From Clostridiales bacterium (GTDB lineage: Bacteria > Bacillota > Clostridia > Lachnospirales > Lachnospiraceae), in the NCBI GenBank assembly GCA_020859995.1, contig JAJBVE010000212.1, positions 1-51,203 on the forward strand: a stretch of DNA of 51,203 nucleotides, read 5' to 3'. Of the stretch, positions 5,142-50,714 are shown one piece after another (position 1 is the first letter of the stretch; each line of letters begins with the position of its first letter). Below the pieces are notes generated by a model. The model ran no database searches. It saw nothing but the letters and a program-made list of their open reading frames with translations, and had not been told where the DNA came from. Position numbers and translations under genes: made by a program.

Positions 5142-6722
5142 TTACACCACAGCCTCCACCAGCACCTTGTCTCCCAGCTGCAGCTGTTTCACGCCAGTCT
5201 GTTTCTTCTTATTGAAACAAAAACTAAGCAGATATCCTTTATCCAGGTGATAATATTCCATGTACTCCAGCAGCTGATCTTCTCCACGCCGGTTATATTC
5301 CTGTCCATGCCAGATTTTCATCTCTACAACATTTTGCACGCCTTTATAATCAATAATGACATCTGTCCGTTTCATATTTCTGGTTCTGGCTTCAATATAA
5401 TAATTTCCGCTCCCATTAATAATCGGCTTCAGAAAGATCAGGAAAATCCGTCTCCCATTATCCTCCACAAACCGATCATCCGCATCCGCGTAGATATCTT
5501 CAAAATACTCGCAAAATTTTTGCAAAACCAGTTCCATCTGAAGATGTCCGCCACGGATAAACTGGTTTTTTTCTGTATCAGCAGCCGTAAACATTTTCAC
5601 ATCTGTCTCTTCTTCTGAAAGAAACAGATTATACAGCTTCATTTCAAATATACGGTTGGAAACACATACCTTTCCGTCCCTTTCTTTCAGAAAACCGAAC
5701 ATTTCTCCAATTCGAATGAGCTCATTATCCGGCTCATAGGCATAGCGGCTGCCTTGAAACAGGATGCTGTAAATCATCTCCTTCAGCTTCGGATAATCTG
5801 CAAGCTTTTTCACCATGTCGTCAAAAAGAGTATTGGTCTTTTTTAAAATCTCACGTACTGCCCCCTGAAAGGCTTCTGCATTCCATGCCTTCGCCCGTTC
5901 CTCTTTAGGACTGGCTTCCGTCACATTCTGCGCCATAATCTGGCACAGTCTGGATACCAGGAAAGGATAACCTGACGTATAATCATACAGAAGCTGGCTG
6001 ATATTGTCCACCTCCATGCCAGTATCCCAGTCCATCTCATACTGTAGAAGCATCGAAGAGATATCTTTTGCGGAAAAGCTCATATCAACCACAAAATCAG
6101 CAGCTATGTTCCAGGGTGAATTATATTTTGATTCTTCCCCTGGATGAAGCTTTTGTTTCAGATTTTTAATATCATAAACACCAGCCAGAATCACAGACCA
6201 AAAAGCCGGAACCTTCGGGCCTTTTAAATAATATGCTCTCAGTTGTGCGAGGAAATCCAGAAACACCTGATTATTCGATGCAGAATCCACTTCATCAATC
6301 ATCAAAACAACACCCTTGTCCGATTTCCCACACCAGGCTCTAATAGCCCTGAAAAGCGCGCCAAAAGAACTGATCTGAGCACTTCCATCTGCAAATGTCT
6401 GCAGCTGCGCCTCAATTCCATCCGGAAAATCCTCGACATTGTCCAGAAGCTCCTCCGCAAAGGCAGCCACAAAGGTCTGTTCATTCTGAAACGAGAGGGT
6501 CCCCACTGTCTGAAAATCCAGACTCACCACCACATAATCCTTTTGCAGATAATCCGCCAGCGCATTCAGCGTTGTCGTTTTTCCGAACTGCCGCGCCCGA
6601 TTCATCACAAAATATTCCCCATCATCCACCATTTTTTTGATTTCCTGCAATCTGGAAGTCAAATCTACCATATAATGCTTCTGAGGCCGGCAGGTTCCAT
6701 TTACATTAAAAACCCTGCTCAT
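5142..6722 (-). CDS. AAA-ATPase-like / PD-(D/E)XK domain protein
   Basis: A 526-residue member of a family greatly expanded in gut Firmicutes and Bacteroidetes, whose function is unknown to me. The N-terminus MSRVFNVNGTCRP followed by an HYMVD motif is typical. Residues 41-50 (NRARQFGKTT) replace a classical Walker A with the family's Q-x-GKTT loop. VVLMIDEVDS at 138-147 is Walker B. The C-terminal part, about 390-510, carries a PD-(D/E)XK-type core with D454, E467 and K469 (VVEMKIW), so a nuclease activity is plausible but unproven. I chose ATG 6722: it has AAGGGGGG just upstream and matches the family start, while the reading frame extends to 7058 through a repeat-rich leader without family resemblance. 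It may act in defence or mobile-element biology; that is inference. Confidence 0.85.
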   Translation of the reverse strand: MSRVFNVNGTCRPQKHYMVDLTSRLQEIKKMVDDGEYFVMNRARQFGKTTTLNALADYLQKDYVVVSLDFQTVGTLSFQNEQTFVAAFAEELLDNVEDFPDGIEAQLQTFADGSAQISSFGALFRAIRAWCGKSDKGVVLMIDEVDSASNNQVFLDFLAQLRAYYLKGPKVPAFWSVILAGVYDIKNLKQKLHPGEESKYNSPWNIAADFVVDMSFSAKDISSMLLQYEMDWDTGMEVDNISQLLYDYTSGYPFLVSRLCQIMAQNVTEASPKEERAKAWNAEAFQGAVREILKKTNTLFDDMVKKLADYPKLKEMIYSILFQGSRYAYEPDNELIRIGEMFGFLKERDGKVCVSNRIFEMKLYNLFLSEEETDVKMFTAADTEKNQFIRGGHLQMELVLQKFCEYFEDIYADADDRFVEDNGRRIFLIFLKPIINGSGNYYIEARTRNMKRTDVIIDYKGVQNVVEMKIWHGQEYNRRGEDQLLEYMEYYHLDKGYLLSFCFNKKKQTGVKQLQLGDKVLVEAVV

Positions 6723-7079
6723 GACTAGTTTCCCCCCTTCTACACGGATTTTGCTTCCATAGTCCCCTCGCCGGGTGGCATCCCGCACTTTGTGCGGGAT
6801 ATGCAATCGCGCAGCGATTTTCAGTTGCGCGGCTTTCATTTTATCATTGATTGTAGCATAAAGTGCAAAGATTTGTCTATGTATTCCGAATGGAAAATAT
6901 GCGTTTCTCGTGCTCTGTGCATCCCGCTGTAGGGTGCGTAACGCGTATGTAACGTGTAACGAAAATCGGTCACTGGATAAATAATACGTGACAACTTCCT
7001 CTATCCTTGTTAAAATAAGGCAGAAAATGCAGCGCCCTGGCTGACTGCACAAACCCAAAAAAGAAAGCGAGGAAGCACT
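6723..7079. other. Divergent intergenic region with palindromes
   Basis: 357 nt between the divergent AAA/nuclease gene and the GH5 gene, no convincing gene. The half near the AAA gene holds the palindromic element at 6762-6802 and a small hairpin (AATCGC-GCA-GCGATT, 6805-6819). The GH5-proximal half should contain its promoter, but I see no good -35/-10 pair. Confidence 0.6.
6762..6802 (-). repeat. Palindromic repeat element, ATATCCC...GGGATGCC type
   Basis: Nine-base perfect stem ATCCCGCAC (6780-6788) and GTGCGGGAT (6792-6800) with a TTT loop. On the minus strand it is followed by TGCCACCCGGCGAGGG. That 16-mer recurs exactly at 38340-38355, and a variant with the same order of parts lies at 38483-38523. 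Confidence 0.8.
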
Positions 7080-8765: not shown

Positions 8766-8900
8766 GTAACTATTCAGGACAGTACTTCGCACTTGCTGCG
8801 AAGTACGTATGAAAACGTATATTATGTGGGGAAAAGCCCCATCGCGAAGCGATTCTAAATGGACTTTTCCCTCGTAACTGTGAAGGCACTGAACAGTTAC
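8766..8900. mobile_element. MITE-like palindromic element, 135 bp
   Basis: Terminal inverted repeats GTAACTATTCAG (8766-8777) and CTGAACAGTTAC (8889-8900) match at 11 of 12 positions. Inside are two more inverted repeats: GTACTTCGCA/TGCGAAGTAC (8782-8806), and a larger one with arms GGGGAAAAGCCCC (8829-8841) and GGACTTTTCCC around an inner ATCGCGAAGCGAT. The right end (8874-8900) is itself a palindrome that recurs at 29826-29852 in reverse orientation with one mismatch in 27. No transposase is encoded. Confidence 0.7.
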
Positions 8901-37451: not shown

Positions 37452-38294
37452 TCAGACCTGGCATGCATCCCACAGCTGCTGGATGTGCTCTCTGGCCTGC
37501 ACGGCATTTGCCGGCACGGTGTCCTCCAGCGTCGCGTGAATGTACGGTTTTCTTTCCTTTATAAAACGGATAATCCGGGAATAGTCCATCTGCCCGGTTC
37601 CGGCGGCGGTGGAGATCAGCTGATTGCCTTCCACCCGGTAATCCTTCAGATGCATCACCGCGACATCCTCACCCAGCAGCTCGATTGTCTCCGCGAAAAT
37701 CTCGTCGCTGTTCTGATAGTTGCTGATATCCAGCAGGTTGACCGGATCAAAAATAATCTGAAGGTTGGGGGAATCGATTGCGTCCAGCACCTTTCTCGCC
37801 CGCTTCGGGGTTGAGACAATGTGGCGGTACACCGGCTCAATCGCCAGAATGACGCCCATCTTCTCCGCATATTCTACTACAGGACGTACATTTTTTATAA
37901 AAAGCTCCAGCGCTTCCTCCGAATGGCAGGCCTCCTCAAAGCGGTACTCCTCATTCGGCGCTCCAGTCTCCGTGCCGACAACGCCCGCGCCGAGCTGCGC
38001 CGCAAAGCGGATGTTGGTCAGATAGCGGCGGGTCGTCGCCTTCAGGCTCACAGGGTTCGGATTTGCCAGATTCAGGTAGCAGCCCAGCACTGCGATATCC
38101 AGCTGATTTTCAGCGAAAAGCTTTTTTAAATACATCGCATAGCCGGGGGTGAGCGCCCCATCATCCACCGGATTTTCCGAGATCACCTTGCCCAGAGCCA
38201 GATGTGCGCAGGAAAATCCCTGCTCATGAGCGGTCTGCAGCCGTTCGGCAAGCGGCGCTTCCTTAACATCATGCAAACGAATTCCTATCTGCAT
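37452..38294 (-). CDS. Sugar phosphate isomerase/epimerase, xylose-isomerase-like TIM barrel
   Basis: A 280-residue AP-endonuclease-2-type barrel. Metal ligands are visible as E in VLAIEPVYRH, D and N in IIFDPVNLLD, H in VAVMHLKDY, and E in HATLEDT near the C-terminus. Family members isomerise or epimerise small sugars. The exact substrate, possibly a uronate or rhamnose-derived ketose, is inferred only from its place between GH28 and GH105. ATG 38294 has GGAGG nine bases upstream. Confidence 0.87.
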   Translation of the reverse strand: MQIGIRLHDVKEAPLAERLQTAHEQGFSCAHLALGKVISENPVDDGALTPGYAMYLKKLFAENQLDIAVLGCYLNLANPNPVSLKATTRRYLTNIRFAAQLGAGVVGTETGAPNEEYRFEEACHSEEALELFIKNVRPVVEYAEKMGVILAIEPVYRHIVSTPKRARKVLDAIDSPNLQIIFDPVNLLDISNYQNSDEIFAETIELLGEDVAVMHLKDYRVEGNQLISTAAGTGQMDYSRIIRFIKERKPYIHATLEDTVPANAVQAREHIQQLWDACQV

Positions 38295-38339: not shown

Positions 38340-38545
38340 TGCCACCCGGCGAGGGCGAACCTGTGGAATTGCCCCCTCACTTCGTTCGGCGGCAGGTCGG
38401 TTCGCTCATCCTGATTCGCTTCGCGAAGGAATATCCCATGCGAAGCGTGGGATGCCCGCGCCCTGCAATCAGAGATTGGGGCTTATCCCGTCCGAAGGAC
38501 GAGGATGCCACCCCGGCGAGGGGCATAACCCGGCGAGGGCGAACC
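38340..38545. repeat. Cluster of palindromic repeat modules between GH28 and the TIM-barrel gene
   Basis: About 200 nt packed with small GC-rich palindromes. Two ATATCCC...GGATGCC modules lie at 38431-38462 and 38483-38523. CCCGGCGAGGGCGAACC occurs twice (38345-38361 and 38529-38545). Small hairpins include GTCC-GAA-GGAC and CCCATGCGAAGCGTGGG. The segment at 38376-38400 shares GCGGCAGGTCGG with the insertion inside the GH78 gene. The cluster ends four bases before the GH28 stop codon. Confidence 0.82.
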
Positions 38546-38548
38546 AAC

Positions 38549-40234
38549 CTAGTGAATGACTTCGTCCACATCGTGCAGCTCGAACAGCTCACCCTCGCAG
38601 CCCTCGATCTTCACGTTATCCAGAACCAGCCGTTTCACATTGCGGACGAACACGCCCTTTTTGCTGCACGCATCCACGCCCTCAGACATAATCGGCACAT
38701 CGCTTTTCGCATCCGCAGCGAAAGAAATTTCAATATTCCGCATCTGGATCTGCTCAATCTTCTGCTCCGGAAGGCCTTCAAACCAGAGTGCAGCCACATG
38801 GCAGTCCTTCGCGTGAATGTTTTCAAAAAAGAATCGCTTCATGGACGGCGTCCCGTCGTCCACCGGATACTTTTCGCGGGAGCGCACAAACTCTGTCCGC
38901 CCGTCTGGATCACAGAAATAAAACGCATTTGCCGTAAACGGCGACATTACCTGATCCATCTCAAGGTCGCGGAAAATGATGTTGTCGAGCACTGCGTCTT
39001 TTCCGCGTCCGCGCCGCGTCTTGATACGCAGTCCGCGGTCTGTATGGGAAAACCGGCATTTTTCAACGACCAGTCCGTTGACGCCCCCAGCCATCTCGCT
39101 GCCGACCGTGACCGCGCCGTGTCCGTTTTCCATCAGGCACTGATAAATATGAATATTTGAGGAAGGCGTTTTGTATTTCCGTCCCATATAAATTTTCCCG
39201 GATTTCACCGCAATGCAGTCATCTCCGAGGGTAAAGCGAATCCCGCAGATCGTGACATCCCTGCAGGATTCCGGATCAATTCCATCCGTATTCGGGGAAA
39301 CCTGCGGATTTTCAATCGCAAAATCACTAAACAGCAACTGCTCGCAAAAATATGGATGCACCGTCCAGGACGGGCTGTCATGCAGCAGCACTCCCTGCAC
39401 ACGGACATTTTTGCAATGATTCAGAAACAGCAGGCGCGGCCGCCAGGCCGTCACCATCACCTTCTCGTTTTTCCACCAGTTCTCATGCGAAGCAGCTCCG
39501 TCGATACTGCCTTCGCCATAGATTGTGACATCTGAAACATCCACGCCGGTCACAATCCCGGTAAACATTTTCTGCGGATCGCCTTCCCAGGTGCCAAGCT
39601 GAAGCTCCTGGCTTCCAGCCGCTCCAGCGGCGGCGTTCAGGTATCCCCGGCCGGTGCCACACGATGATCCCTGCCCCACATCAGCCGGGCAGCCTCTCTT
39701 TCCATCAGCCAGAACATCTGGCTCACACGCATCCGGCACATCCGGACATATACTCCTGATCGCTCCCGGGAAAATCGCGAATTTCGACCGATCTGTAAAT
39801 GCCCGGATATGGGCGCCTTTTTCCAGTTCAATATTCACACCGCTCTTTAAAAAGATACTTGTGATCCGGTAGATCCCCTCCGGGATCCGTACGCGCCCTT
39901 CCCGCGGGCAAGCCATGATCGCAGCCTGAATGCAGACCGTATCATCCGACTCGCCGTCTCCCTTCGCGCCAAACTCCCGGACATCCAGGGTAAAGGATTC
40001 CCGGTCCGTGCGGAACGCAAAGGAACCAAGCGTCGCACCATGCAGATCCTCCGCCAGAATCATGTAGTCTGTATCCGGCTGCAAATGATAGAGGGAGGTA
40101 ATCACCGTGTCCGTGCGTTTGACCTCTTCCCCATTTTGCAGAATCCGATAAGGCTCTTTCGTATTATATATCCCGCCGTCGTCAAGTTCAAGAGTCACAC
40201 TTCTGGCGGTTTTCATTATAAGGCGAATATTCAT
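38549..40234 (-). CDS. GH28 polygalacturonase / rhamnogalacturonan hydrolase
   Basis: A 561-residue right-handed beta-helix enzyme. Catalytic residues are visible as NTDGID with D317, GDDCIAVKSG with D338 and D339, GHGAVTVGSE with H372, and RIKTRRGRG with R403 and K405. An N-terminal fibronectin-like segment (1-80) precedes the helix (DVREFGAKGDGESDDT near 85). No signal peptide is evident, so it probably cleaves imported oligogalacturonides. Residues about 160-214 form a Gly/Ala/Cys-rich stretch that interrupts the expected FAIFPG to LGTWEG junction. ATG 40234 has AGAGGAA upstream; an earlier in-frame start at 40300 lacks one. Confidence 0.93.
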   Translation of the reverse strand: MNIRLIMKTARSVTLELDDGGIYNTKEPYRILQNGEEVKRTDTVITSLYHLQPDTDYMILAEDLHGATLGSFAFRTDRESFTLDVREFGAKGDGESDDTVCIQAAIMACPREGRVRIPEGIYRITSIFLKSGVNIELEKGAHIRAFTDRSKFAIFPGAIRSICPDVPDACEPDVLADGKRGCPADVGQGSSCGTGRGYLNAAAGAAGSQELQLGTWEGDPQKMFTGIVTGVDVSDVTIYGEGSIDGAASHENWWKNEKVMVTAWRPRLLFLNHCKNVRVQGVLLHDSPSWTVHPYFCEQLLFSDFAIENPQVSPNTDGIDPESCRDVTICGIRFTLGDDCIAVKSGKIYMGRKYKTPSSNIHIYQCLMENGHGAVTVGSEMAGGVNGLVVEKCRFSHTDRGLRIKTRRGRGKDAVLDNIIFRDLEMDQVMSPFTANAFYFCDPDGRTEFVRSREKYPVDDGTPSMKRFFFENIHAKDCHVAALWFEGLPEQKIEQIQMRNIEISFAADAKSDVPIMSEGVDACSKKGVFVRNVKRLVLDNVKIEGCEGELFELHDVDEVIH

Positions 40235-40432
40235 GAAAATTTCCTCTGACTGCCAGTTGAAATACTCTCCCGATTCTGAAACATCCTTTCGCGATTCCAT
40301 TTAATCAGGCAAGAAAGCACGTACCAATTGCCACGTCCTAAGAATGATGCGTGCCAGCGGCATCCGCCTCATTCCTCTTAACTGCTTCATCATTGAAAAA
40401 GGGATGACAGGAACTGCCACCCCTTTGGGAGA

Positions 40433-47903: not shown

Positions 47904-50714
47904 TTAAAAAATCTTTTCTTCTATCTTTCCTTCCATCTTCTCACCCTGTTTCACAATCCTGAGAGCCTTTCCATGCCATGGCACGCGAAGGACAAAATCC
48001 GGACAGTCCGGTATCTGCGGCGGAACGAACCACAGGCCGTCCATTTTCTCCGATGCCTTGCAGACCAGCATAGCTGCCCTCTGACTTTTCTGACCTGCAT
48101 TTTCCGGATCCGGATACAGCCCCGCGATCTCCTCAATAAACAGAGGGATAAATCCGCTGCTCCACCCGTGGCAGAGGCTGGTGTTCCATTTCTGCTCCTT
48201 CCCCCAGACTTCAAAGGACGCGCTCGCTCCCTCCCGGAGCATATTCCGCCAGCCATAGGCATCCGCCCGGGTCATCAGCCGGAAGCAGACATCCGGTCTG
48301 CCGATTTTCGCCGCGCTCTTCAGCGCAAAATAAGCGGGCAGTGCGCCGCAGACCCGGCCAGGAGCCTGCAAAAGAGTAAGATAAGCGTCTTCCGCTTCCT
48401 GCGGCAGCAGTCCAAAACAAGCAGCATACAAATTCGCGTGAAGCGAACAGTGCTCACTCTTTTCGCTGTCCGCAAACAGGTGCGGTTTCTTTCGGTAAAA
48501 TGCCGCACGGTATGCCGGCGCAATCCGCGCAGTCCTCCCGGCCGCCGGCAGCCCAAGTATTCGCTCCATCTGCTCCTGCATCTGATTCGCCCCATACCAG
48601 AGCGCGTTTATGACATTATGGCAGCCCTCGCCCACAACCGGGCGGGTCAGCGCAAAATCATATCCGTCACGCAGGTTTTCCGGCCAGTCCACAAGGTTCC
48701 ACAGATCACCCACATTCTCAAGCAAACCGTCCGGGCGCTGATAAATCAAAAACGATTCCGTCAGCCTTTTCACCGCCGGATAGCAGCTGGCCAGATACTC
48801 CTTATCCGCCGTAAACTCATAATCTGTCAGCGGAAGCAGCGGAAACAGCAGCGAAAAATCTGCAATCTCCTGCATCACGCTCCCAGGCGCGACCGCCATC
48901 ATCGACGCCGAAATACACTGCGAAGCAATAAAATCATCAATGCACTTGCGCAGAAGCTCCGTGCTCCCGGTCAGCCATACCTGCGAACGCCCGGTAATCA
49001 GCGCATCTCCCAGATACTGCCCCTTTTCGCGGGTCGGACAGTCCAGGTATCCGTCCTGCGAGCAGCAGCGCACTGCGTTTTTGCAGATTTCGAAAATCTG
49101 CTCCAGCTCATCCTCACTCTTTAGTGAGCAGGCATCTTCCTCCATCGGATAATGCCGTACCCAGGCATGTATCCCGCGAATTTTAACCGTATCCGGATAA
49201 ATCAGCTGCGCATAGCGGAATCCTTTGTAATCATAAGGATGGAAACGGCTGACTCCTTCTCCCAGTGTCCAGATCTCCTGATACGCACATCCGCAGCGCA
49301 TGTCCCAGCGCACGTTTGATCGGTTGATGCTGCAACTATCTTGTTTGTCCGACAGATCATCCGGTAGTCTTCCTATGTCTAAAGGCAGCGCAGTATTTTC
49401 CGCCGTTTCCAGTTCCTCGCCATAGCGGATCACCACCTGCGCTCCTGCAGGTCCGACCGCCTCCGCAAGAATCGAACCAGTGATTTCACGCCCAAAATCC
49501 AGCAAATCACTCACCAGGCCGTCCCCACGCGCAGCGTGTTGTAATGGAACGGCGCCGCCGTCCAAACGCGCACCGTTTCTATCAGTGTCAGCACCTTCTG
49601 CAGCAGAACCTTGATTGCCAAAAGTATTCGCCGGTATACCCCCCAGATCCAGCTCTGCAATGAGACGCTTCCCATGCGTATGCGCGGCCGGGCAGATTGT
49701 CTTCTCTTCAAGCATTCGGATTGACCTCGGCATCATCTTATAATCCGCCCAAAGCGCCGGAACCAGATGCCCCCAGGATCCCGTTGTAGTATTCTTAAAA
49801 TCATCTACATCAAACTCCGGTCTCTCCCAGCCTTCCTGCCAGCAGCGGCTGTCAAAATTCTCCAGAAACTGCGTATCGTAGCCGACCGTCTCGCCGCTGT
49901 ATGCCGTACAGATCAAATAGCGCCAGTTCTCATCGCATCGCGCCAGCTCTTCCCATGAGCCACTTTTTTGCAGGCCGTCCCCACGCGAAGCGTCTTGAAA
50001 TGGGACGGCCGACCTGCCGCTGAGCGCAGCGAAGGGGCGCTTCCTTTGCAGGCCGTCCCCACGCGAAGCGGAAGTTTTCTTCCTCCGCACCGAAACCCAC
50101 ACCCCAAAACGCCCGTCTCCGCTCGTCCAGGAGCGGCTGATTCTTCCATGATAATACAAATGCAAAGCGATCGTAACCTTATGAGACCCCATTCTGTGGT
50201 CCAGGGCAGAATTGTCATCACTCGCTCTCCTGGCTCCCTGCAGCGGGGTATGCGGCGCAGGTGTGACGAGTAACGAATCGTCATCTTGATCCGTCATCCG
50301 CAATCCGAATGGACCCACAGACTTTCCAATCGGATAGCTGTCATAATAGCAGCGATCTGAACAAGATGCAGACGGCCCCTGCCCCTGATAAACACCGTCC
50401 ACCCACAACTGATAATGGTCATCCGCTGCTACCAGCAGTTCATAATCATTTATCTCAGAATTATACAGGTCTCCCATTTGCTCCTGCGCAGAAACCTTCT
50501 CCGGCTTTAATTCAGCCACAGAATCTGTATTCTCGCCCGGCAGGTCGATCACGCCGCGCACCAGCACGTGAAAATTCTCCGGTGCGTCCGCCCGGTGCAG
50601 ATTATCTGCCTCCCTCTCCCGTCCGGAAACATTCACCTGCCGCACGGATGTCCACTCAGGAATCGTCATCCAACCTGATGAGTTCATTCTTTCCTTTTCA
50701 TTGTTTGCTGTCAT
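47904..50714 (-). CDS. GH78 alpha-L-rhamnosidase-like protein with in-frame palindromic inserts
   Basis: A 936-residue protein. N-terminal beta domains (to about 470) precede an (alpha/alpha)6 barrel whose start DGYLDCPTREKGQYLGDA carries the expected catalytic acidic residues. GHNVINALWYG-like, SASFEVWGKEQKWNTSLCHGW and C-terminal beta-sheet segments fit GH78. It would remove rhamnose from rhamnogalacturonan. Three places in the N-terminal half do not look like enzyme: KTSASRGDGLQ, RSAVPFQDASRGDGLQ and GAVPLQHAARGDGLV. All are encoded by copies of one DNA palindrome. No signal peptide is seen. The start is either ATG 50714 or ATG 50687, which has a better AAGGAAAG site. Confidence 0.85.
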   Translation of the reverse strand: MTANNEKERMNSSGWMTIPEWTSVRQVNVSGREREADNLHRADAPENFHVLVRGVIDLPGENTDSVAELKPEKVSAQEQMGDLYNSEINDYELLVAADDHYQLWVDGVYQGQGPSASCSDRCYYDSYPIGKSVGPFGLRMTDQDDDSLLVTPAPHTPLQGARRASDDNSALDHRMGSHKVTIALHLYYHGRISRSWTSGDGRFGVWVSVRRKKTSASRGDGLQRKRPFAALSGRSAVPFQDASRGDGLQKSGSWEELARCDENWRYLICTAYSGETVGYDTQFLENFDSRCWQEGWERPEFDVDDFKNTTTGSWGHLVPALWADYKMMPRSIRMLEEKTICPAAHTHGKRLIAELDLGGIPANTFGNQGSAAEGADTDRNGARLDGGAVPLQHAARGDGLVSDLLDFGREITGSILAEAVGPAGAQVVIRYGEELETAENTALPLDIGRLPDDLSDKQDSCSINRSNVRWDMRCGCAYQEIWTLGEGVSRFHPYDYKGFRYAQLIYPDTVKIRGIHAWVRHYPMEEDACSLKSEDELEQIFEICKNAVRCCSQDGYLDCPTREKGQYLGDALITGRSQVWLTGSTELLRKCIDDFIASQCISASMMAVAPGSVMQEIADFSLLFPLLPLTDYEFTADKEYLASCYPAVKRLTESFLIYQRPDGLLENVGDLWNLVDWPENLRDGYDFALTRPVVGEGCHNVINALWYGANQMQEQMERILGLPAAGRTARIAPAYRAAFYRKKPHLFADSEKSEHCSLHANLYAACFGLLPQEAEDAYLTLLQAPGRVCGALPAYFALKSAAKIGRPDVCFRLMTRADAYGWRNMLREGASASFEVWGKEQKWNTSLCHGWSSGFIPLFIEEIAGLYPDPENAGQKSQRAAMLVCKASEKMDGLWFVPPQIPDCPDFVLRVPWHGKALRIVKQGEKMEGKIEEKIF
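49518..49553. repeat. Palindromic element copy C inside GH78
   Basis: Arms GCCGTCCC and GGAACGGC with an inner ACGCGCAGCGT hairpin. On the minus strand it encodes AVPLQHAARGDGL. It is a diverged copy of 49973-50010. Confidence 0.85.
49967..50010. repeat. Palindromic element copy B inside GH78
   Basis: GGCCGTCCCC (49973-49982) and GGGACGGCC (50002-50010) form the outer stem; ACGCGAAGCGT forms an inner hairpin. On the minus strand it encodes AVPFQDASRGDGLQ. Confidence 0.9.
50009..50069. repeat. Palindromic element copy A and linking module inside GH78
   Basis: TTTGCAGGCCGTCCCC and ACGCGAAGC at 50045-50069 repeat copy B base for base over 25 nt and encode SASRGDGLQ. The stretch 50009-50038 between A and B carries GCGGCAGGTCGG on the minus strand, as found intergenically at 38389-38400. 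Confidence 0.85.

Follow-up and report, generated by a model that had tools for sequence, protein, structure and literature searches.

How a bacterial enzyme gene comes to carry several copies of one palindrome is the question raised by a 51,203-nt stretch of DNA (hereafter, the window) from a Clostridiales bacterium of the family Lachnospiraceae (assembly GCA_020859995.1, contig JAJBVE010000212.1). Within it, a gene for a GH78-type alpha-L-rhamnosidase contains three palindromes, which the initial annotation had proposed to be selfish DNA spreading through coding sequence in the manner of the Rickettsia palindromic elements (RPEs). Copies elsewhere in the genome and genus, together with empty orthologous sites, support this proposal; that the DNA is selfish and mobile is what we infer from them. 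We consider it probable, at roughly three chances in four, that the palindromes are parts of GA-cis, a non-autonomous repeat with two hairpins which is mobile now or was until recently and which has spread into coding sequence in the genus of the window. Genomes and loci are cited below by working numbers prefixed G and L, and features of the window are collected in Table 1.

Identity and spread of the GH78 palindromes

Searching the window with the 18-mer GCRGGCCGTCCCCACGCG at up to three mismatches returned three matches (at 49514, 49970 and 50048; expectation 0.15), a number reached in none of 100 shuffles, and all of them fall within the minus-strand rhamnosidase open reading frame (ORF). 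Three palindromes are therefore present as first described, but only the middle one is complete: that at 50045–50070 is half a copy and that at 49514–49553 (copy C) has a damaged arm. The segment that separates the first two copies (50011–50048) also belongs to the element, as its second hairpin. The GH78 palindrome is thus half of a two-hairpin element of about 75–80 nt that Rfam already catalogues as an RNA motif, RF02987 "GA-cis", and the window element belongs to the same sequence and structure family: two window copies exceed the curated cut-off and have the two-hairpin consensus structure (Table 1). Relative to the GH78 gene, the RNA strand of GA-cis lies in antisense orientation. Folded as single-stranded DNA, the middle palindrome (49967–50013, minus strand) outperformed its shuffles (z −2.63); neither copy C (z −0.69) nor the A+B stretch of 109 nt (z −1.40 on one strand, −0.88 on the other) clearly did so.

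The element is dispersed well beyond this gene. When the 116-nt A+B stretch served as a blastn query (E 0.01), 18 of the 47 genus genomes, the window's own among them, proved to hold copies. Rfam named copies found in this way GA-cis, with 15 matches in 11 of the 12 loci submitted. Above the GA-cis cut-off, we counted at least 21 matches in the own genome of 4.4 Mb (150 of 368 candidates scored), at least 23 of 47 genomes in the genus, with at least 62 matches at E 0.001 in the richest one (at most 72 candidates scored per genome, so that these counts are lower bounds), and at least 29 of 397 genomes in the family (10 candidates scored per genome). At the level of the order, 10 of 392 genomes passed the cut-off and 11 had any match at E 0.001, all of them from the family of the window. 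None of the 14 control genomes yielded a match above the cut-off in the own-genome, genus, family or order scans. The initial annotation had named a lack of further genomic copies as grounds for giving up its proposal, and these counts remove that concern.

A stricter search gives a different picture. The exact 20-mer of the palindrome occurs three times in the genome, always in the GH78 gene, and among the 397 family genomes only in the own one, which would favor an ancient stretch of enzyme sequence or a local palindrome duplication special to GH78. GA-cis is found elsewhere only when divergence of the arms is allowed, so the rarity of the 20-mer, which alone resembles a refutation, is misleading. 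A repeat unique to this gene, the candidate suggested by the exact-pattern searches, is ruled out by diverged copies in the own genome and in many genomes of the genus; since GH78 relatives without such segments exist as well, we give this explanation practically no weight. The exact-pattern search also returned six stretches with one match each in an organism of another group, which we took as chance. With a short degenerate pattern we obtained 36 matches where the reversed control had 27, too small a difference to be of use. Viral contigs contained no match in the pattern scan, which is weak evidence as the pattern was exact and narrow.

The same peptide in the same frame had been reported for all three GH78 copies, and translation bears this out within the gene (SASRGDGLQ, AVPFQDASRGDGLQ and AVPLQHAARGDGLV). 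Elsewhere, however, copies occupy all six combinations of frame and orientation, so the shared peptide and frame reflect local duplication and not a general rule. Nor is RGDGL conserved in the GH78 homologues examined, a possibility raised at the outset: among these relatives it is absent at the site of the two adjacent copies (site A/B) or placed elsewhere. In G422, site A/B is empty and site C holds an array of hairpins A-B-A (two copies); our own model, R1, also detects eroded copies in this relative (E 9.9e-7). In G437, half a copy remains at A/B and hairpin A is eroded at site C (R1 detection weak, E 0.01), and G428 has an eroded half at A/B. In G431, a plus-strand element occupies site A/B (R1 36.6 bits, E 1.2e-6; no Rfam call at E 0.5). 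The alignment shows no such segments in G426, G435, G406, G432 and G411. The GH78 gene thus seems to have been hit repeatedly and in both orientations; its hairpin-A copy at site C is shared with two other genomes, and local growth probably produced the A-B-A array at site A/B.

Insertion into coding sequence

To describe the genomic context, we read 125 copies with their flanks, comprising 104 of the 140 listed matches from other genomes of the genus and 21 from the own genome. A copy was assigned to an ORF of at least 250 aa when at least 15 aa lay on both sides of it. By this rule, 77 of the 125 copies lie in long ORFs, 32 are intergenic and 16 ambiguous. Neighboring positions of the same loci fall in long ORFs in 136 of 195 cases, so the element hardly avoids coding sequence. 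All six frame and orientation classes are occupied among the in-ORF copies (24, 20, 15, 10, 4 and 4), with 43 copies in sense and 34 in antisense orientation. A Pfam family (E 0.001) was recognized in 35 of 40 hand-picked host ORFs, including valyl-tRNA synthetase, TatD, riboflavin kinase/FAD synthetase, Mur ligase, IMP cyclohydrolase, glycoside hydrolases and ABC transporters. The insert lies inside a single Pfam stretch in seven hosts (L212, L169, L191, L234, L235, L240 and L125) and precedes the domain in a cytidylate kinase.

Comparison with orthologues revealed empty counterparts of four filled sites. TatD carries 25 residues in L212 that are absent from six orthologues (L284–L289), and in alignments with two relatives of TatD in the PDB, the match breaks off at residue 164 (163) and starts again at 191, leaving out the insert. 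IMP cyclohydrolase has 25 residues in four loci (L240, L292, L293, L294) that three others lack (L290, L291, L299), and valyl-tRNA synthetase has 24 residues in L254 that are absent from L280–L283. In an AAA-ATPase, 26 residues in L135 are absent both from the close orthologue L182 (net 78 nt) and from a paralogue in the window (5142–7058). The net gains are whole codons at all four sites (24, 25, 25 and 26). At a fifth site, in a Mur ligase, L169 is filled, L298 holds an eroded remnant and L297 is empty, and the alignments of L295 and L296 end at the site. The predicted enzymes accordingly carry about 25 extra residues per insert.

The genome with the filled valyl-tRNA synthetase, G411 (4% contamination), contains a second valyl-tRNA synthetase-like stretch, 79% identical, that passes the insert site of L254 without a gap, which means that this assembly may have another such gene besides the filled one. 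L254 has another long insertion, rich in Ala, Ser and Asp, before its FDKIYLHW segment.

The AAA-ATPase loop holds different copies. L161 and L237 carry the element in one orientation and L215 and L180 in the other, with L135 in a third frame; the gain is 26 aa in all four cases measured (L135, L161, L215 and L237). This pattern probably reflects three independent hits, although inversion in place may account for the two orientations. AAA-ATPase-like proteins were often hit, at two loops (L187, L199, L165, L182 and L132; L161, L180, L215, L237 and L135; window ORF 5142–7058).

The sequences of the copies are in keeping with survival in reading frames. Element length is 2 mod 3 in 53 of 77 in-ORF copies versus 13 of 32 intergenic ones (chi-square over three length classes, p 0.02). 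On average, 3.82 frames are open versus 3.47 in dinucleotide shuffles (highest of 40: 3.60), a small effect, with 4.05 versus 3.56 for in-ORF and 3.38 versus 3.18 for intergenic copies, as expected of survivors. A different outcome, in which the inserts are removed from the mRNA or skipped by the ribosome and the proteins are normal, has a precedent in yeast mitochondrial elements, which are mentioned in the text on nematomorph palindromes cited below (PMC6649704), and would suit hairpins lying within conserved enzymes, a tRNA synthetase among them. Skipping would require neither net lengths in multiples of three, as found at four sites, nor spanning frames that are open in both orientations, and we judge it improbable.

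Structure, borders and movement of the element

On the RNA strand, the consensus begins with a conserved A followed by hairpin A, which consists of a 9–10 nt arm, an inner hairpin around GCGAAGC, AAT and the matching arm; then come GACCTGCC, hairpin B and GTTTCC. GCGAAGC, a heptamer that forms an exceptionally stable mini-hairpin in DNA, occurs in 91 of the 125 copies. For the analysis of stems, copies more than 86% alike were removed, leaving 83 of 125; 82 of these entered an arm-swapping comparison, and the first 70 within 77–87 nt were used for alignment and arm counts. In the inner stem of hairpin A, two pairs are changed on both sides in 16/70 and 29/70 sequences, and an inner pair of hairpin B in 36/70. 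The outer stem of about 9 bp was missed by MAFFT with RNAalifold because the arms are too variable for alignment, and was therefore assessed by arm swapping: a copy's own arms form a mean of 8.85 Watson–Crick pairs versus 3.93 when swapped (200 swaps, highest mean 4.25), in a set collected with a structure model, which favors intact stems. Among copies with a stem of at least 5 (61 of 70 anchored), 56 of 57 arms are distinct, and arm identity stays at ~0.46 even between copies whose other halves are 80–90% alike. Both hairpins are maintained by compensatory changes.

A downstream repeat of the element start, giving the A-B-A arrangement, occurs in 20 of 125 copies (control: 2), so most copies are single units. 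Three-unit tandem arrays with a spacing of 85–89 nt were noted in other genera (G208:C47, G262:C9 and G366:C4). In L143 (G000:C97:13424-13545) and in the G431 GH78 gene (L077, 1616–1726), a third hairpin-like module, CTCGCCGGGTGGCATCC...GGGATATC, is seemingly nested between hairpins A and B, and pieces of it, by eye, also flank other GA-cis copies. GA-cis further occurs inside a larger repeat of ~130–250 bp with extra hairpins, 88–99% alike between places (L158 and L175 in G436, L159 and L176 in G438, L155 in G430), possibly a longer, recently dispersed form. At the locus common to L158 and L159, the block is inverted between the same flanking genes. Near-identical copies at unrelated flanks, as recent dispersal of a miniature inverted-repeat transposable element (MITE) would leave them, were seen for this composite in G436 and G438 and not for in-gene copies.

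Borders were analyzed in 108 of the 125 copies. Their only strong mark is an A before the arm (98%); a TCCnnA context is found in only 12 copies, and AGAG stands at both borders in one clean empty/filled pair (L182/L135).

Dispersal, insertion, in-frame survival at four sites and tandem arrays with shared arms are shown by these comparisons. As to how they came about, we find it most economical to suppose that GA-cis is non-autonomous and presumably still mobile, and that a factor acting in trans would move it. This factor might recognize the folded form of the element and not the sequence of the arms; the GCGAAGC core suggests that single-stranded DNA may be what folds. Insertions would fall widely, and only those of in-frame length in tolerant loops would survive. 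The REP-associated tyrosine (Y1) transposases (RAYTs) that move repetitive extragenic palindromes (REPs) offer one model, since REPs and the bacterial interspersed mosaic elements (BIMEs) are likewise short, multi-copy palindromes, and small palindromes without clear target-site duplications would fit it. REPs are, however, mainly extragenic. The Y1 family PF01797, present in 25 of 47 genus genomes, had no match in five that have 23 to 55 GA-cis matches, namely the own one, G437, G426, G431 and G409 (drafts may miss the gene). A RAYT-moved REP-type element is accordingly a poor candidate.

Several observations weigh against a mobile repeat that invades proteins. No transposase or recombinase was found, Y1 (PF01797) being the only family searched, and this family is absent from the own and several rich genomes. 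There is no general target-site duplication of the kind expected of a MITE: 5 of 108 copies have one of at least 4 nt versus 4.5 expected, and 2 have one of at least 6 nt versus 0.3. In 18 of 21 cross-genome pairs sharing an insertion, conservation is higher in the insert than around it, unlike in decaying selfish DNA (mean identity 0.948 versus 0.849 and 0.861, no indels), in a sample in which pairs share sites and both members needed a high score. The four net lengths could be multiples of three by chance alone (~1 in 81). The count of 77 rests on ORF length and includes L136, whose ORF has no Pfam match and overlaps a longer one, so that some assignments are false. Finally, the genomes are drafts, and translation of the inserts into protein is a prediction.

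GA-cis in other genera and among known systems

GA-cis behaves differently outside the window genus, where we sampled 50 of the 130 listed family matches, from 28 genomes of 25 other genera. A Shine–Dalgarno (SD)-like motif stands at the 5' end of 45/50 of these copies and after the 3' end of 31/50, versus 11/125 and 4/125 in the window genus. Only three of the 50 lie in an ORF of at least 150 aa; of the remaining 47, 39 share their strand with the next ORF, 4 are opposed to it and for 4 it is unseen. The 32 intergenic copies of the window genus show no such bias, the next ORF being co-oriented in 14, opposed in 15 and unseen in 3. The name GA-cis presumably implies a cis position upstream of genes, which thus holds elsewhere (39 versus 4) and not in the window genus (14 versus 15, with 77/125 copies in long ORFs). 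Rfam catalogues the family as a small RNA (sRNA) gene, whereas copies of the window genus are mostly in long ORFs, on either strand and mostly without an SD-like motif.

The contrast is our best hint that an intercistronic element bound to one strand became orientation-free in the window genus, with the direction of change our reading of the sequences. Its SD-linked same-strand siting would then have been lost there, leaving the element in long ORFs about as often as neighboring positions. We see an even chance that GA-cis has two ways of life, one at ribosome binding sites between same-strand genes, in most of the family's genera that have it, and the other, in a single genus, as an invader of coding sequence. 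In the latter it would insert in either orientation and any frame, giving conserved enzymes about 25 more residues, while its hairpins re-evolve through compensatory changes. If so, an SD-like motif on both sides would make intercistronic insertion harmless, and what is catalogued as a "cis RNA" would turn out to be a mobile element that builds protein.

The same data could be read the other way, with GA-cis as a functional cis-acting RNA near ribosome binding sites and the in-gene copies of the window genus as a by-product. The siting in other genera, with same-strand next ORFs and 5' SD-like motifs, agrees with this, as do covarying stems and the high conservation of shared inserts. However, the 20 genes scanned downstream of copies in other genera are of diverse kinds (17 matched Pfam at 1e-6; chaperonin, reductases, ABC, ROK, SpoIIIAA and MFS among them), so no regulon is apparent. 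The element is also multi-copy and tandem, and in the window genus it has no orientation preference, 34 of 77 in-ORF copies being antisense to their host. We therefore regard a cis-acting RNA as unlikely and return to a mobile repeat in comparing GA-cis with known systems.

A literature search for in-frame palindromes in Lachnospiraceae, Clostridia and Firmicutes, with subscription papers outside its coverage, returned nothing relevant; GA-cis is listed in a table of Rfam 15 (PMC11701678). By description, GA-cis is comparable to the RPEs, small hairpin repeats that are given as 105–146 or ~150 bp long and bear terminal inverted repeats; they lie between genes and also form in-frame fusions with many unrelated, conserved protein genes, and for an RPE-bearing gmk both translation and activity of the product have been demonstrated (PMC2229807, PMC10969869). 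GA-cis is likewise inserted in frame in unrelated conserved genes. It differs from the RPEs so described in its length of ~75–80 nt, its two hairpins with hypervariable covarying arms, its six frame and orientation classes and its SD-linked second guise. Wolbachia counterparts of RPEs appear to be of the same kind. Nematomorph mitochondria keep near-perfect hairpins inside coding sequence, gained and lost, with inverted repeats of up to 142 bp per arm; they resemble GA-cis in this respect, and the parts of the description available to us mention no dispersed family with a conserved core (PMC6649704).

Rickettsia offers the best-known case of palindromes invading proteins in frame, and here such invasion would extend to a presumably unrelated 4.4-Mb genome and its genus. 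With at least 20 copies in many genomes, empty orthologues and one loop holding different copies, it becomes testable whether the inserts merely survive or supply new protein loops. One Rfam "RNA" family needs re-reading, and gene annotation and structural work on these bacteria should expect inserts of ~25 residues outside the enzyme fold.

Table 1. Location of GA-cis copies, their parts and associated ORFs in the window.
Feature	Position	Strand	Details
GH78-type alpha-L-rhamnosidase ORF, insert host	47904..50714	-	936 aa; Pfam Bac_rhamnosid6H, Bac_rhamnosid
Full GA-cis element (RF02987): hairpin A (palindrome) and hairpin B	49969..50048	+	Rfam 62.3 bits, cut-off 34.7; R1 73.9 bits at 49968-50048
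Hairpin A	49973..50010	+	9-nt arms 49973-49981 / 50002-50010; inner hairpin ACGC-GAA-GCGT
Hairpin B	50016..50038	+	Rfam structure line; one inner pair covaries in genus alignment
Truncated second hairpin A	50045..50070	+	direct repeat of 49967-49992, 78 nt from full copy
Copy C: hairpin A with imperfect 3' arm, no intact hairpin B	49514..49553	+	90% identity to copy B over 39 nt; R1 21.8 bits, E 0.0026
Possible eroded extra half copy beside copy C	49556..49575	+	weak: 2-mismatch pattern match 49558-49575
Second full GA-cis copy (L136)	38361..38440	-	Rfam 45.2 bits; R1 75.4 bits; between minus-strand ORFs 38549-40300 and 37452-38294
Hairpin-A-only remnant	8827..8874	+	R1 25.9 bits, E 0.0003
Weak hairpin-A-only candidate	6792..6842	+	R1 17.8 bits, E 0.022
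AAA-ATPase-type ORF with empty recurrent insertion site	5142..7058	-	KLHPG-EESKYNSPWN, site after KLHPG; named by likeness to L135/L180

Away from the GH78 gene, the window thus contains a second full copy, a remnant, a weak candidate and an ORF whose recurrent insertion site is empty. The second full copy, L136, is on the same strand as both flanking ORFs and is probably intergenic.

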